IMG/VR virus record: IMGVR_UViG_3300048591_000801
Location: 1 to 38,293 of that record
Origin: a virus
DNA: 38,293 bases
Direction: 5' to 3' (one strand)
In this document: in pieces, positions 1,143 through 38,293 of the stretch
Position numbering within the stretch: the stretch's first letter is position 1
How the letters are laid out: every line of letters starts with the position of its first letter
Program-made: the position numbers and the translations under genes
The notes under the pieces: generated by a model
The model's database searches: none
What the model saw: only the letters and a program-made list of their open reading frames with translations
Told to the model about the DNA's origin: nothing

Positions 1143-2171
1143 ATGACGAATTTGCCAGCCGTCCCGGTCGACCTCGGCGAGATGGCCAACCGCGTCGCCG
1201 CCGGCGCCGTGTTCGATCTGTATGCCGATGAGATGTCGCAAGCCACGCTGGAGACGCAGGTCGACGCGCTCAACCTGTTCGCGCGCTACCTCGGCGAGAA
1301 GAAGCACGCGACCACCGGCCCGCGACTGGCCACCGACCCGGCCCAGTGGCGCGGCATCACCTGGGGCCTTGTCGAAGGCTTCAAGCAGTGGATGAAAGAA
1401 TCGCAGGGGTTTGCCATCGGCACGATCAACAACCGGCTGAGCGTAGTGCGCACCTATGCCGCCCTCGCCCACAAGGCCGGCGTGATCGAACCCGAGGAGG
1501 CCTCACTCATTGCCGCGGTGACGAACATCCGTTCCGCCGCCGGCATGAACATCGACAGCCACCGCGCAACGACGCGCGTGAGCACGAAGAAGGCGAACTT
1601 CAACACGCTTTCGCGCCAGGAGGTGCAGGCGCTGCTCGATCAGCCCGACACGCCGCGCGGCCGGCGCGATGCAGCAGTGATCGCCACGCTGTATTACTTC
1701 GGCACGCGCGCCGAGGAGGCCGCCGGCATCCAGGTGAGCGACGTGAACATGATCGAAGGCCTGGTGCACGTGTTCCGTCCCAAGGTCAAGGGCACCGACC
1801 AGGCGCATGGCGTCTATGACCTGAACGCGCCGGAGTTTGCGCCGGCGCGCCGGGCGTATGAGTCCTACCATCGTCATGACGCGCCGCCGATCGGGATGTT
1901 CTTCCGCGGGTCGATCCAGAACAGTGACGAGCTGGGTGATCACCCGATGACCCGCGTCACCATATCGCAGCTCGTGGCCACGCTGGGCCGGCGCATCGGC
2001 TTCAGCAACCTGAGCGCGCATGACCTGCGCCACACCGGCGCCACGCACATCGCCGCAACAGACAACAACCTGATCCGTCTGCGCGACTGGGGTGGCTGGA
2101 ACTCGATTCAGATGCCGGCGCGCTATGCGAAGCGCGCGAAGACGGCCAATGAAGGCGTGAGGTTTGGGTAA
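1143..2171 (+). CDS. tyrosine recombinase / phage integrase
   Basis: A 342-residue protein with the two-domain layout of phage integrases. Residues 20-130 are a helical core-binding (SAM-like) domain and residues 155-342 the catalytic domain. The catalytic set is visible: Arg189 in GTRAEE, a Lys in the PKVKG beta hairpin (214 or 216), His293 and Arg296 in HDLRH, Trp319 in place of the usual third His, and the nucleophile Tyr328 in PARY. It should cut and join DNA at att sites by a covalent 3'-phosphotyrosine step. It starts at ATG after a palindromic region. A second, unrelated integrase (the serine recombinase) lies 3 kb downstream, so which one integrates this element is open. Confidence 0.93.
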   Translation: MTNLPAVPVDLGEMANRVAAGAVFDLYADEMSQATLETQVDALNLFARYLGEKKHATTGPRLATDPAQWRGITWGLVEGFKQWMKESQGFAIGTINNRLSVVRTYAALAHKAGVIEPEEASLIAAVTNIRSAAGMNIDSHRATTRVSTKKANFNTLSRQEVQALLDQPDTPRGRRDAAVIATLYYFGTRAEEAAGIQVSDVNMIEGLVHVFRPKVKGTDQAHGVYDLNAPEFAPARRAYESYHRHDAPPIGMFFRGSIQNSDELGDHPMTRVTISQLVATLGRRIGFSNLSAHDLRHTGATHIAATDNNLIRLRDWGGWNSIQMPARYAKRAKTANEGVRFG

Positions 2172-2786: not shown

Positions 2787-3195
2787 GTAAGGTCGGAGGC
2801 GTGGCGAGGCTCGGCAAGGCGCGGTCCGGCGCGGCGTGGCCCGGCTAGGCAAGGCCTGGTGAGGTGAGGAAATGTCGGGGGCGAGGTCGGGACGGGCGAG
2901 GCACGGTCGGGTGAAGTCAGGCGCGGCGCGCTCTGGCATGGCATAGTGAGGAAGTGTCAGGGGCATGGCGCGGCTAGGCGCGGCGAGGCGCGGCCGGGTG
3001 CGGCCAGGCATGGTAAGGAAGTGTCGGAGGCGCGGCGTGGCAAGGCCGGATGTGGTCGGGCATGGCGCGGCTAGGCGCGGCGAGGCGCGGCCGGGTGCGG
3101 CCAGGCATGGTAAGGAAGTGTCGGAGGCGCGGCGTGGCAAGGCCGGATGTGGTCGGGCATGGCGCGGCTTGGTGCGGTCTGGCAAGGCAAGGGAA
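2786..3195 (+). repeat. five-unit array: 17-nt element plus blocks of GGYNN pentamers
   Basis: Non-coding, G-rich on the plus strand. A 17-nt element (consensus GGAARTGTCRGRGGCNN, the first copy diverged) occurs at 2786, 2868, 2950, 3017 and 3114. Between copies lie uninterrupted 5-nt units beginning GG, nearly always GGC or GGT plus two variable bases: 13, 13, 10, 16 and 13 units. Element spacing is therefore 82, 82, 67 and 97, and the last unit is 82 nt to the closing hairpin, giving 410 nt or 5 x 82 in total. Each 17-nt element moves the pentamer register by +2, so a reading frame is not what is conserved. A few units deviate (for example AGTCA, GCTCT, AGTGA, GATGT). Confidence 0.9.
2964..3157 (+). 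repeat. perfect 97-bp tandem duplication inside the pentamer array
   Basis: Positions 2964-3060 and 3061-3157 are identical over all 97 bases, and a third partial copy starts at 3158. The duplication joins a 10-unit block and a 16-unit block; together they hold 26 pentamers, twice the usual 13. This fits an unequal exchange that conserved the total number of units. Confidence 0.93.
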
Positions 3196-3225
3196 GGATG
3201 GGTGAAGGTCAATCTTCACCCATCC
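3196..3225 (+). other. perfect 12-bp hairpin closing the array
   Basis: GGATGGGTGAAG at 3196-3207 pairs without mismatch with CTTCACCCATCC at 3214-3225 around a 6-nt loop. It begins exactly where the fifth 82-nt unit ends, in pentamer register. No T run follows, so it is more likely a 3' cap or processing structure of an RNA, or a DNA landmark, than a simple intrinsic terminator. Confidence 0.8.
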
Positions 3226-3238
3226 AGAGAGATTTCAT

Positions 3239-3262
3239 CCGACGAATGGAAACTTACGTCGG
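3239..3262 (+). promoter_or_regulatory. leader hairpin with GAAA loop (copy 1)
   Basis: A 24-nt hairpin, arms 3239-3248 and 3253-3262, with a GAAA tetraloop. Six outer pairs are perfect (CCGACG/CGTCGG) and the inner four contain two mismatches. It is followed by GGAATATATGGGAG, which supplies the ribosome-binding site for the gene at 3280. Its twin lies at 4101. Confidence 0.6.
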
Positions 3263-3279
3263 AATATATGGGAGCAACG

Positions 3280-3687
3280 ATGAGCGAAGATCATGAGGCC
3301 TATGCGGCAACGCCAGAGATAGACGATCTCGATGTTTGGCTGGGCGAATTGCACAGCGCGATTCATGCATGGCTATTCGCCGCCGGCATCACTGACGGGC
3401 CGGTGTTTGTGAAGCTGGCCTACGGCAAGCTCACGCGCCAGCCATTGACCTGCGAGAGCTACATCAACGAGATCGTGGCGCGTGTGGCAGATCGGGCAGG
3501 GCTGGAAGTGAAACGCATCGCACCGCACCGCGCCTTCAGAGCGTCACCGATCACTGCGGCTGCACACGCCGACGAAAACCCGGCGCTCATCTCCAAGCGA
3601 GCGCGGCACAAGAGTTTTGAGACCACGAAGAAATACATTGACCGCAATGCCGGCGACGATGTGCGCGTCGGCAGGGCGGCGTATTAG
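3280..3687 (+). CDS. truncated tyrosine-recombinase-like protein
   Basis: A 135-residue protein. I start it at the ATG after the leader hairpin and GGGAG, not further up in the repeat array. Residues about 45-130 match the C-terminal half of a tyrosine recombinase catalytic domain: a GPVFVKL strand, then HRAFRASPITAAA where recombinases have HxLRAGFxTAAA, then HKSFETTKKYI ending in the usual Tyr. The N-terminal core-binding domain and the first catalytic Arg are absent, and in box II the His sits one position too far from the Arg. So it is either a decayed integrase end rescued by a new start or a small protein that keeps only the DNA-binding or multimerising part. It shares its leader type and its MSE start with the Ea22-like gene at 4143. 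Confidence 0.65.
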   Translation: MSEDHEAYAATPEIDDLDVWLGELHSAIHAWLFAAGITDGPVFVKLAYGKLTRQPLTCESYINEIVARVADRAGLEVKRIAPHRAFRASPITAAAHADENPALISKRARHKSFETTKKYIDRNAGDDVRVGRAAY

Positions 3688-5064: not shown

Positions 5065-5240
5065 CCCGCAAACTCCCCCACCCTCGCCGGCCGGGCCGGC
5101 CCAAGCGCGCGCCAAACGTCGCACGCTTGCCGGTCGTGCCGCGATCCAAGCTCAGCGCCTACCCGCCGCGCGTGCAACGCCTCATGCGCGCAATCGCCGC
5201 TGCTGAAGGCCAGCTCGAGCCGCAGCCGGAATCTGCATGA
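5061..5240 (+). CDS. small Arg/Pro-rich protein preceding the serine recombinase
   Basis: A 59-residue ORF starting at GTG, which overlaps the preceding stop (GTGA) and has a strong GGAGG eight bases upstream. It ends in an ATGA overlap with the serine recombinase, so it is translationally coupled on both sides. The N-terminal 30 residues are rich in Arg, Lys and Pro (HPRRPGRPKRAP), and a helix follows. Basic composition and position next to a recombinase suggest a DNA-binding accessory factor, for example a directionality factor, but there is no sequence evidence beyond this. Confidence 0.55.
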   Translation: MTRKLPHPRRPGRPKRAPNVARLPVVPRSKLSAYPPRVQRLMRAIAAAEGQLEPQPESA

Positions 5241-6781
5241 CGCGCATCGCCATTTACATGCGCTACTCCAGCGAGGAGCAATCCGAAGGCTGGAGCATCG
5301 AAGCGCAGGAACGCGGCTGCCGGGCGTTCGTCGCCGGCAAGCCTGGCTGGAACATCGTCGCGCTCTACACCGACGAGGCACGCAGCGGCAAGAGCACCGA
5401 CCGCCCCGGATTTCAGGACATGCTCAAGGGCGCGCACGCCGGCGCCTTCGATGTGCTGGTGTGCCATAAGCTCGACCGCTTCTCCCGCAACCTGGTCGAC
5501 GTGCTGCTCACGCTCGACGATCTGCAAAAGCACGATGTGACCTTTGCCAGCGCGACAGAGCCGATTGACTTCACCACGCCGCTGGGCAAGGTTGTGCTGA
5601 TCATCCTCGCGTTCTTCGCCGAGTGGTATCTGCAAAACCTCAGCGCCGAGACCACCAAAGGCAAGCGTGAGCGCTTTCAGGCCGGCCTATGGAACGGCGA
5701 CCTGCGCTACGGCTACACACGCAGCGCCGACGGCAAGCCCCAGCTCGTGGATGAATCGCAGCACGTGCGCACCGCCTATGAGGCATGCGCCGCCGGCAAG
5801 AGCGACACACAGGTGGCCGCCGCGCTGAATGCAGCCGGCTCGCGCACACTCCGCCTGCGCAGCAACAGCAGGATGAAAGCCGGCTACGACACGCCGATCG
5901 ACGAGCGCCGGCCGTGGACGAAGGATGGCATCGGCGCATTGTTCACGCCGGAAGCCGCCGCGTTCTACTGCGGCCACACCACCTACATCGGCGAAGAGGA
6001 GCGCAAGAAGCCGAAGCACAAGCGCGAGATGCAAGTGCGGCGCAACACCCACCCCGCCGTTATCGATGATGAGCTGGCGCAAACGGCACTGGCTGCACGA
6101 GCGCGCCGGCGCAACCCCGGCCGGCTGGCCACCGTGCCACTTAAACATGACTACATCTTCGGCGAGCGCGTCGCCGTGTGTAGCGTGTGCGGCAAGCCAA
6201 TGCGCGCCTGGCACAGCACCACCGGCCAGAAGGCCTACTATCGCTGCGCAGCCGCCCAGCGCGGGGAATCGTGCACGGCGCCGGCGCGCCCGGTGGCTGA
6301 AGACGTGCTGGTCGATTGCATGAACGATTACATCGCCGATCTGGAACTGCCCGACGACTGGCGCGAGGCGATCCGCGAGGTGAACGCCCAGGACGACGCC
6401 CGGGCGCAGGCGATAGAGGCGCGCGAGCGGCTGGCCGGCCAGCTCAGGCGCATCAACTACCAGATCAACGCCGGCATGGTGCTCGACGATGACCTGCCCG
6501 GCATGGAGCGCCGCGCGCGATCGTTGAAGGAGCAGATTGAAACGATGGCCATTCCAGCGCCGGCACGGACCGTGGAGGCCGGCGAGCGCATGGTGCGGCT
6601 GCGGCAGATCTGGCCGACGGCCAGCAAATACATCCGGCGCGAGATCGTGCAGGCGATGTGCGCAGCGGTGATTGTGGACACGGAACGCCGGCGCATTGCC
6701 GGCATCAAGCCGCATCCGGAGTTCCTGGTGTTGTTTGATCGCACACGCCTGACCCGTGACGGCGACGTGTGGCGCATATGA
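5237..6781 (+). CDS. large serine recombinase / serine integrase
   Basis: A 514-residue protein. Residues 1-140 are the resolvase-type catalytic domain, with YMRYSSEEQ placing the nucleophile at Ser11 and with the conserved DKLDRFSRN-type stretch at residues 76-83 (HKLDRFSRN). Residues about 170-290 are the recombinase DNA-binding domain. Near residue 315 a zinc ribbon starts (CSVCGKP), with further Cys at YYRC and GESC. Residues 380-440 form a coiled coil, as in phage integrases that control attP x attB against attL x attR recombination by this part. Length is normal for the group. It is the last gene of the early strand and its stop lies in the left arm of a 50-nt dyad. Confidence 0.93.
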   Translation: MTRIAIYMRYSSEEQSEGWSIEAQERGCRAFVAGKPGWNIVALYTDEARSGKSTDRPGFQDMLKGAHAGAFDVLVCHKLDRFSRNLVDVLLTLDDLQKHDVTFASATEPIDFTTPLGKVVLIILAFFAEWYLQNLSAETTKGKRERFQAGLWNGDLRYGYTRSADGKPQLVDESQHVRTAYEACAAGKSDTQVAAALNAAGSRTLRLRSNSRMKAGYDTPIDERRPWTKDGIGALFTPEAAAFYCGHTTYIGEEERKKPKHKREMQVRRNTHPAVIDDELAQTALAARARRRNPGRLATVPLKHDYIFGERVAVCSVCGKPMRAWHSTTGQKAYYRCAAAQRGESCTAPARPVAEDVLVDCMNDYIADLELPDDWREAIREVNAQDDARAQAIEARERLAGQLRRINYQINAGMVLDDDLPGMERRARSLKEQIETMAIPAPARTVEAGERMVRLRQIWPTASKYIRREIVQAMCAAVIVDTERRRIAGIKPHPEFLVLFDRTRLTRDGDVWRI

Positions 6782-36200: not shown

Positions 36201-36245
36201 AAAATGCAAAGCGCCCGCCAACCTCATCACGAGGTCGGCGGGCGC
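36201..36245 (-). terminator. intrinsic terminator after the deoxyribosyltransferase-like gene (copy B)
   Basis: On the minus strand 36245-36231 pairs with 36225-36211 around a 5-nt loop, followed by TTTGCATTTT. One base differs from copy A at 26033-26067; on the minus-strand RNA it becomes a G-U pair, while on the plus strand it would be an A-C mismatch. The upstream AAATAAAAGGC is also shared. Confidence 0.82.
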
Positions 36246-36294: not shown

Positions 36295-36936
36295 TCATCT
36301 GCCCCACTTGCCCTTGCGAAGTAATGCCCCTATCACCGCATACACCGCCGCGTCGATGAGCGTGTCGTCGATCGATTCGTTCTTCGGCGCGCGCGGCGCT
36401 TCGAAGCGCACGCTGTCTGGATTGATGTCAAAGCGAAAGCCGAGCAGGTTCATCAGGCGCGCAATCTTGTCCCACAGCCGCGTGGCCAGGCCGATCTCGC
36501 CTGTCGCCAGGATGTTCGCCGGCGAGTAATCCGCGTTCTTCGACAGGTGCGTGCGATACATCCGGCCCATCATCTCGCGGAAGGCCCGCGCCTGCTCCGG
36601 GCAGCGCACCTCGGTGATGTGCAGCGCCGGCAGATCGGGCGCATAGTAAATGGGCATGCCGAGCGATGAGGCATAGGTGTGCTCTTCGACCGCGCCTTTG
36701 CTGTCGCGCCACCCTTCCATCATCACCATCGCATCGACGCGCGCGATCATGTTCAGGTCGCCGTCGAGCCATTGCCGGTGCGTGATCTCCGGCGCGAACT
36801 CGGACACGAGATGGCTGTTGGTGTGCGGGCAGATCACGGCATGGCCGGCGCGCCACAGCTCCGCAGCGATCGCCGCCGCTTTCTCGGTGTTGCCGTCGGG
36901 GTCGCTTGAATACGGTCCTGCGAGATAGATCAGCAT
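36295..36936 (-). CDS. nucleoside deoxyribosyltransferase-like (DUF4406) / Nmad1 (DUF1599) fusion
   Basis: A 213-residue protein, ATG seven bases after AGGAGG. Residues 1-105 match DUF4406-type nucleoside 2-deoxyribosyltransferase-like proteins: IYLAGPYSSD, a GHAVICPHTNSH strand-loop, then GWRDSKGAVEEHTYASSLG with the Glu expected in the active site. Residues 110-213 match nucleotide-modification-associated domain 1: KNADYSPANIL, LATRLWDKIARLMNLLGF and ESIDDTLIDAAVYAVIGALL. The domains are known from phage nucleotide salvage and DNA base hypermodification. The fusion suggests one enzyme or subunit acting on modified deoxynucleotides. No other base-modification gene is in the window. Confidence 0.82.
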   Translation of the reverse strand: MLIYLAGPYSSDPDGNTEKAAAIAAELWRAGHAVICPHTNSHLVSEFAPEITHRQWLDGDLNMIARVDAMVMMEGWRDSKGAVEEHTYASSLGMPIYYAPDLPALHITEVRCPEQARAFREMMGRMYRTHLSKNADYSPANILATGEIGLATRLWDKIARLMNLLGFRFDINPDSVRFEAPRAPKNESIDDTLIDAAVYAVIGALLRKGKWGR

Positions 36937-36960
36937 GTGTGCCTCCTGTGTATATACAAA

Positions 36961-38250
36961 TCAACCAATCTCCCACCCGCCCATGTCATACGCCGGCGCA
37001 TCCGGCTCCGTGCTGGCATACAGCGGCCAGCGGTGCGTGACGCCATGCTCGGGGTGGATGCCGAACATGAGCTGGTTCGGCGGATCCGCCGCGCCCATGC
37101 CATTCACTGTGAACTCAGTGCCGCCGCACAATGAGCCGTTGATGAACACCTCGCCGGCGGCCTGCGGCAGCGACGACTGCGAGTGGAAGTGCGAGATCAG
37201 CCAGTAGTTGATCGTGTTGCGCCGCGCCGCCTCGAGCGCGTTCTGGTTCCTCGTCGAGCGCTGGATGCCGTAGAAGGGAATGCCGGCCCAGCCCTTGATG
37301 TCGTGGCCATGCATCATGCCGAACGTGAAGCCCTGCACGGCGAACAGGCACGAGTAAGCATTCGGGATGTGCCATTCGATGTTCGTGAGGTTGCTCAAAA
37401 ACGCCTTCGCATACAGATACACGAGCGTGTCCCAGTTGCGCAGCGGCTCCTTCTGCTGCATGCGCTTGGCATCCGGCAGCCGGCCGTGGTTGCCGGACAG
37501 GCAATACACCCGCACGCGCGGATATGCCGCGGCCAGGTCGCGCAGGGCCTGCGCGAGGATCCATGCGGTGCCGTGCACGTTCAGCACGATGTTCTCCGCG
37601 TCGGTGTGCTTTTCGGCTTCGTGAATCGTGCCCGGCACGAAGTCGCCGTTGATGCCGACCACCAGCTCGTCGAAGCGCCAGCCGCCGGCTTCCAGTTTGC
37701 TCTTGATCGAGATCGCGCTTTCGATGACGCGCCGGGCGCGCTGCGAGGTGATCTGCGCGTTGTATTCGTTGATGCCGCGCGTGCCTTCACGGCTGATCAG
37801 CTCGGCGCTGTGCCAGTCGGAGAGAAGCAAGCCCATCGACTCGCGTGTGGCGTGCTTCGGGGCCTTGGGTGGCCTGTATGCCGGCGGCGCCGTGAAGCGC
37901 GCGGCGGCCTTGTCTGCCAGTGCCTCAAGGAAGGCCCGCAGGCTCTTCTCGCCGGCCACCGCCTTCAGCAACTCCTGCTCTTCCTTCAGCCGGCGCACGC
38001 GATCGCGCCGCTCGGCCTCCTCGACGATGGGGTCTTTCGGCGGGGTGCGCGCCGGCGGGTTGTCAGCCCGGCCGCTCTGCACGGCGCGGGCGTATTGCTG
38101 CTGGCAGCGCTCTGCCGATTTGCCGGGGAACAGTTTTGAGATCTCCGTCCAGCCGCGCATCGGCATGACGCCGTCCACCATGCGCTTGCGCGCTTCAGCG
38201 ATCAGTCGGGGTTCGTGTTCGATCCAGTAGGGGGATATTGTGCCTGCCAT
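36961..38250 (-). CDS. calcineurin-like metallophosphoesterase with Myb-like N-terminus
   Basis: A 429-residue protein if started at the ATG giving MAGTISPYW; the open frame goes on to GTG 38274, near the window end, and an even earlier start cannot be excluded. The N-terminal 55 residues resemble a Myb/SANT-type helix-turn-helix (GWTEISKLFPGKSAERCQQQ). Metal-binding motifs follow in order: LLLSDWHSAEL, GINGDFVPG, CLSGNHGR, MMHGHDIKG and ISHFHSQS. This is the set of Mre11/SbcD-like and other phage phosphoesterases. It probably acts on DNA ends or nucleotides in phage replication. It is the first visible gene of the minus-strand operon. Confidence 0.85.
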   Translation of the reverse strand: MAGTISPYWIEHEPRLIAEARKRMVDGVMPMRGWTEISKLFPGKSAERCQQQYARAVQSGRADNPPARTPPKDPIVEEAERRDRVRRLKEEQELLKAVAGEKSLRAFLEALADKAAARFTAPPAYRPPKAPKHATRESMGLLLSDWHSAELISREGTRGINEYNAQITSQRARRVIESAISIKSKLEAGGWRFDELVVGINGDFVPGTIHEAEKHTDAENIVLNVHGTAWILAQALRDLAAAYPRVRVYCLSGNHGRLPDAKRMQQKEPLRNWDTLVYLYAKAFLSNLTNIEWHIPNAYSCLFAVQGFTFGMMHGHDIKGWAGIPFYGIQRSTRNQNALEAARRNTINYWLISHFHSQSSLPQAAGEVFINGSLCGGTEFTVNGMGAADPPNQLMFGIHPEHGVTHRWPLYASTEPDAPAYDMGGWEIG

Positions 38251-38293
38251 TCGATGCGCCGCCCCACCCAGCACGGGTGAAGGCGGGCGCGCG

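Follow-up and report, generated by a model that had tools for sequence, protein, structure and literature searches.

An NDT-like domain joined to an Nmad1-type domain in a phage protein family: a candidate two-step deoxynucleotide-degrading enzyme

A protein of 213 residues that joins a nucleoside 2-deoxyribosyltransferase (NDT)-like domain of the DUF4406 type to an Nmad1 (DUF1599)-type helical domain is encoded in IMG/VR record IMGVR_UViG_3300048591_000801, the whole of which (38,293 bases; classed as linear, possibly a fragment) was analysed and is referred to here as the window. The open reading frame (ORF) is a real gene with two domains; a chance ORF is excluded because full-length relatives of the chain occur in 14 other viral contigs (6 found among 33 loci and 8 among 36 loci). 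With one ORF giving both family matches, the two nucleotide-related domains in one chain described by the initial annotation are borne out. The two-domain architecture thus belongs to a phage family, and it comes with an NDT-like fold, conserved catalytic-type residues and, in the C-terminal domain, a group of charged residues under strict conservation. Tentatively, and with somewhat less than even confidence, we propose a single-chain nucleotide-degrading enzyme that would take a deoxynucleoside triphosphate (dNTP) to the monophosphate (dNMP) and then to free base plus deoxyribose-5-phosphate, removing one dNTP from the pool. The features of the gene are as follows.

36295..36936, minus strand: gene for the 213-residue fusion of a DUF4406 (NDT-like) and an Nmad1-type domain (single ATG-to-stop ORF, family matches, relatives, AlphaFold2 model).
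36643..36936, minus strand: DUF4406/NDT-like domain, residues 1–98, with catalytic-type Tyr4, Asp60 and Glu85 (Pfam, structure match, DmtZ alignment).
36295..36600, minus strand: Nmad1 (DUF1599)-type helical domain, residues 113–213 (PHROG, relatives, model).
36942..36947, minus strand: AGGAGG, Shine-Dalgarno-like, 5 bases ahead of the start codon (read from the sequence).

The deoxyribosyltransferase-like character first ascribed to the N-terminal part was confirmed, both by family match and by an NDT/DNPH1 fold in the model. Residues 1–98 match Pfam DUF4406 at 58.7 bits (E 8e-16), passing the curated cut-off of 22, and PHROG 355 ('nucleoside 2-deoxyribosyltransferase') is matched at 5e-30; the score for Pfam NDT (PF05014) itself is 21.7 bits, under its cut-off of 28.8. 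In the whole-chain AlphaFold2 model (31 alignment rows, mean predicted local distance difference test (pLDDT) score 90.6), the top structure match of the N-terminal part (residues 1–110) is 1T1J (Z 14.5, root-mean-square deviation (rmsd) 2.4, 105 aligned), and NDT, DNPH1 and MilB entries match at Z 9.2–11.2 over 87–107 residues. When the sequence was aligned with DmtZ, the window residues Tyr4, Asp60 and Glu85 fell at Tyr6, Asn77 and Glu103, whose catalytic roles are described in passages of PMC12884076. Conservation was read from a fusion alignment of 12 full-length rows, from which L002, L010 and L041 (translations identical to those of L001, L004 and L040) and L070 (DNA identical to that of L005) were omitted. 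Tyr4 and Glu85 are each present in 12/12 rows and Asp60 in 10/12, the window copy having all three. By model, fold and catalytic residues the domain belongs to the NDT superfamily, in its DUF4406 branch.

Whether that domain hydrolyses or transfers is a separate matter, and here the residue signs are mixed. At the position of DmtZ Asp12, where the same passages describe Arg as common in hydrolases (PMC12884076), Arg stands in 9/12 fusion rows and Ser in the window copy. Three observations weigh against the proposed cleavage of a dNMP. Pro37, at the position of DmtZ Pro57, which is described there as conserved in known transferases, is present in 12/12 fusion rows; Asp60 is replaced by Tyr in L045 and by Thr in L004; and two SPARTA entries also match the N-terminal model (Z 10.4 and 9.2), so that the fold alone cannot fix the function. 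On these mixed signs, a hydrolase is no more than the likelier of the two.

The 'Nmad1' label given to the C-terminal part stood as a family relation through relatives, but not as a direct match. Residues 113–205 match PHROG 1485 (2e-12), and the window protein gave no match to Pfam Nmad1/DUF1599 (PF07659) at E ≤ 1. Three of ten relatives scanned exceed the PF07659 curated cut-off of 25 bits (L014, 30.5; L019, 26.7; L023, 33.8), while the three fusion rows among the same ten lie below it (L001, 12.3; L003, 17.9; L005, 16). Among the aligned C-terminal rows, 24/30 match PF07659 at E ≤ 1, and all 30 share K133, D136, Y137, K157, R160, L164, E187, D191, D195 and Y199. On this sequence relationship we assign the domain to the Nmad1/DUF1599 family. 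PF07659 evidently misses this branch, since a search of chromosomes from the phylum of the Nodosilinea genome returned 0/98 although the set includes a fusion-carrying genome. We know of no demonstrated activity for Nmad1, and literature searches on it named none among their results.

Modelled alone (30 rows, mean pLDDT 89.3), the C-terminal domain forms a long helical hairpin with a third helix. In the VIA-align comparison its first row is 2P06 (AF0060; Z 8.4, rmsd 3.3, 82/84 aligned), and all-alpha NTP pyrophosphatase entries make up 10 of the first 22 rows, the others of these at Z 4.4–5.8. These entries represent about five proteins, which we take to be AF0060, human and mouse DCTPP1, AF1178 and YpjD, six of the entries being mouse DCTPP1. 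PMC4030988 tabulates AF0060 among the 'all-alpha NTP pyrophosphatases'. In Foldseek, Protein Data Bank (PDB) rows 2, 3, 5, 7 and 8 are DCTPP1/dCTPase/RS21-C6 chains (E 2.2–3.1). When the whole-chain model was compared with BFVD, the best match, A0A6J5LQ71, was an entry named after a dATP/dGTP diphosphohydrolase N-terminal domain and serves as a lead only (226 columns, rmsd 15.7). Several results count against such an assignment. Ribosome entries, with 62–70 residues aligned, account for ten of the remaining 12 among these 22 VIA-align rows, and all Z scores of the domain lie within the range that VIA-align calls common for helical domains. The Foldseek E-values of NTP pyrophosphatases are 2.2–7.7, and the top rank goes to an unrelated chain (E 1.0). 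Comparison by hhalign with MazG (31 rows, picked by phmmer) gave probabilities of 0.2 and 0.7%, and with DUF5664 0.1%, the latter set being a weak one of 11 near relatives of a protein of Arthrobacter phage Wayne; the positive control, MazG domain 1 against MazG domain 2, gave 95%. These comparisons thus found no sequence link from Nmad1 to MazG or DUF5664. A profile search of PDB sequences found nothing relevant, with three GCN4 constructs at E 0.47–1.0. The classical metal-binding signature of all-alpha NTP pyrophosphatases, ExxE...ExxD, is absent from the domain, whose invariant acids are D136, E187, D191 and D195. Because structure scores are weak, profile comparison is null and the signature is absent, we do not place Nmad1 in this superfamily; the model only suggests an NTP-pyrophosphatase-like fold, and the domain may work like one.

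Beyond the window, the fusion makes up a family. Identity of the window protein to its 14 viral relatives is 43–60% over the best segment, with one at 33%; within the alignment, identity to the other 11 rows is 34–49% in residues 1–104 and 35–69% in residues 113–213. A scan of genome_contigs gave 67 pattern matches, and one of these, in Nodosilinea sp. FACHB-131, codes for a relative; the DNA of that segment is the DNA of viral contig L005. Among 50,697 phage records none had a region covering 80% of the query, and four had the C-terminal domain alone; many viral contigs carry that domain without an NDT part. In two fusion members, L040:5001-5729 and L043:1403-2131, which differ by 4 residues, some 30 extra residues are inserted between Nmad1-type helices 2 and 3.

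One relative has a different partner. In L006:5512-6387 an NT5C 5'-deoxynucleotidase (E 3e-37) is joined to the Nmad1-type C-terminal domain. A first tree favours the view that NT5C took the place of the NDT part in L006 within the fusion clade. In this tree L046, the most divergent fusion, has a long branch next to L032/L033; the label 'fusion' has to change 3 times on it, so a single origin for all 12 fusions is not established. A reduced tree, from which the long-branch L046, L068, L054, L064, L032 and L033 as well as L043 were left out, placed ten NDT fusions plus L006 in one clade (support 96/99). With that reduced set, keeping the NDT fusions together was not rejected (p-AU, approximately unbiased test, 0.44), and L006 may lie inside the clade or beside it.

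Enzymes of the NT5C type consume dNMPs. Production of a dNMP by the Nmad1-type domain would fit both architectures, because in L006 that domain is joined to NT5C, likewise a dNMP-consuming type. In the scheme we favour, the C-terminal domain would first cleave a deoxynucleoside triphosphate to the monophosphate. The NDT/DNPH1-like domain, to judge from its fold and conserved residues, would then use Glu85 as nucleophile to split the dNMP, leaving the free base and deoxyribose-5-phosphate. The outcome would be that a single kind of dNTP, either made by the host or damaged, is cleared from the pool while the phage replicates.

Two-step degradation is favoured because the pairing of an NDT-like dNMP hydrolase with a dNTP pyrophosphohydrolase is a known one with precedents in phages. 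The DmtZ-DutZ enzyme of Arthrobacter phage Wayne, the closest one to have been characterised, converts dATP mostly to adenine, a form of pool control, and its C-terminal part alone yields dAMP, according to passages of PMC12884076, and frequent N-terminal fusions of MazZ-1 dGTP pyrophosphohydrolases are noted in part of PMC8342488. Among eight phages whose proteins were scanned, two have such a pairing; in the remaining six, the DUF4406-type domain either has no partner or is accompanied by one that matches no Pfam family. The first of the two is Mycobacterium phage KashFlow, whose gp162 has DUF4406 followed in one chain by PRA-PH (20.1 bits, cut-off 21.3). In the second, phage Bobby (gp156/gp157), the genes for DUF4406 and MazG share 4 bases, at the place corresponding to KashFlow gp162, ahead of MRE11. 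KashFlow gp162 and Bobby gp157 have no BLASTP similarity, so the fused and split forms are not supported as the same gene pair. BLASTP of the window protein with KashFlow gp162 aligned residues 4–131, taking in little of the C-terminal domain. Literature searches, judged mostly from listings, named no report of an NDT-like/Nmad1 fusion. The combination of NDT-like and Nmad1 domains is thus absent from the literature listings and a variant of a known pairing theme.

The same architecture could also mean that the Nmad1-type domain is a binding module for a nucleotide or a partner, which controls the N-terminal dNMP hydrolase or brings it into oligomers and has no chemistry of its own, a reading we consider unlikely but worth weighing. 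It would accommodate the lack of proven homology to any enzyme in the PDB profile search and hhalign comparisons, the modelled shape, in which one further helix is added to a long helical hairpin, and the fact that NDT enzymes work as oligomers. The ten residues invariant in 30/30 rows are mostly charged, however, and resemble an active site, and the domain occurs apart from any NDT part in many contigs.

A further alternative keeps both domains as enzymes, with the C-terminal domain supplying a dNMP and the NDT-like domain swapping in a modified base, the product passing by way of the dNTP into phage DNA. Here the transferase-type Pro37 in 12/12 rows, aligned with Pro57 of DmtZ as described in PMC12884076, is a point in favour, as is L046, where a FolE2 gene runs 7 bases into the start of the NDT-Nmad1 gene. 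Hypermodified DNA had been suggested by the initial annotation. We searched for PF00709, PF00303, PF06508, PF02649, PF02511 and PF12851 in 12 records, namely the window, 10 of the 14 fusion contigs and L006, any of which may be fragments. The adenylosuccinate synthetase/PurZ family was found in 0/12 records (controls 14/14 found), and the ThyA-type and QueC families likewise in 0/12; FolE2 was found in 1/12 (L046) and ThyX in 1/12 (L005). The search for Tet/JBP (PF12851) gave 0/12, but its controls were also silent, so it is uninformative. Hypermodification is therefore unsupported, although absence is not proof because the records may be incomplete, and base exchange strikes us as improbable. 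The accompanying remark that the rest of the window shows no modification pathway held for the families searched, all absent from the window record. As to linked modification genes elsewhere, ThyA-type synthases are absent from all 12 records and ThyX lies in L005 alone, kinases and other Nmad families not having been searched. Salvage of a special deoxynucleotide is kept in view because, in passages of PMC12884076, the DmtZ-DutZ phage has 2-aminoadenine DNA and its enzyme can transfer deoxyribose-phosphate to the 2-aminoadenine base. A bolder combination, in which Nmad1 is a divergent dNTP pyrophosphohydrolase and the fusion, in one chain, takes a dNTP to the free base and can also carry out the last step as a base exchange, we regard as a long shot; if true, non-canonical deoxynucleotides could be produced or disposed of by phages that lack any recognised modification cluster.

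At L046:3127-5007 the FolE2 gene is split by a LAGLIDADG-domain insert that is intein-like (intein model under cut-off). The ThyX gene at L005:4436-5176 lies two genes upstream of the fusion, on the contig identical to the Nodosilinea sp. FACHB-131 segment.

Counter-defence, in which the fusion would destroy a host-immunity nucleotide, be it a signal or a modified nucleotide from a defence system, is very unlikely. A nucleotide modification associated domain is among those predicted in defence systems in passages of PMC13092281, so that such chemistry may act between phage and host, yet no defence or counter-defence gene was identified beside the fusion, though none was specifically searched for.

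Elsewhere in the window are genes for tailed-phage structure (terminase, portal, major head protein and tape measure) and genes of the integrase type. The remaining features are the following.

36211..36245, minus strand: terminator-like hairpin 3' of the fusion gene, GC-rich, 16 pairs with a T-rich tail (hairpin scan).
36961..38292, minus strand: upstream co-directional gene matching PHROG 284 'exonuclease', open at the contig end (ORF and PHROG match).
1143-2171, plus strand: ORF matching integrase PHROGs 1 and 216 (PHROG).
2965-3687, plus strand: ORF matching PHROG 216 (PHROG).
5237-6781, plus strand: ORF matching PHROG 95 integrase and PHROG 125 DNA invertase (PHROG).

The PHROG 284 gene, at the right end of the window, ends 24 bases before the fusion gene. 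The hairpin scan found 1 structure against a mean of 0.7 in shuffled sequence, which by the scan alone is not above chance. The left end of the window holds more than one recombinase gene by PHROG matches. In a survey of 59 neighbouring ORFs from 11 loci, the families listed (25 of 46) concern mostly replication, recombination and packaging; among those listed, DNA_methylase occurs in 2 ORFs and N6_N4_Mtase in 1, so ordinary DNA methylation is kept as a possible gene context for the fusion.

Fusion to a biochemically understood superfamily, and in L006 to a deoxynucleotidase, permits a concrete and testable guess at the function of Nmad1. Nmad1 would join dUTPase, PRA-PH and MazG as partners of NDT-like dNMP hydrolases in phages, and the pattern would suggest that removal of a chosen dNTP in two steps is a recurring scheme.

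Set against known systems, the protein shares with the Nmad1/DUF1599 proteins (PF07659; PHROG 1485) their invariant residues, some relatives scoring over the Pfam cut-off, and differs in that the window copy is fused to an NDT-like domain and lies below PF07659 detection. With the nucleoside 5'-monophosphate N-glycosidases DNPH1 and MilB it shares the fold of the N-terminal domain and the position of the catalytic Glu; these match that domain only, at 15–22% identity over the structural alignment. Wayne DmtZ-DutZ is alike in combining an NDT/DNPH1-like N-terminal domain and a dNTP-acting C-terminal domain in one phage chain, with the catalytic Tyr and Glu aligned, whereas its C-terminal domain is a dUTPase and not Nmad1. 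In the Wayne locus the dUTPase-domain (PF00692) gene comes after a PurA-like gene and a DUF5664 gene; the family of that PurA-like synthetase is the one found in 0/12 of the fusion-side records. KashFlow gp162 and Bobby gp156/gp157 likewise place a DUF4406 domain, as N-terminal domain or overlapping gene, with a domain of the NTP-pyrophosphohydrolase type, differing from the window protein in that the partner is PRA-PH or MazG.
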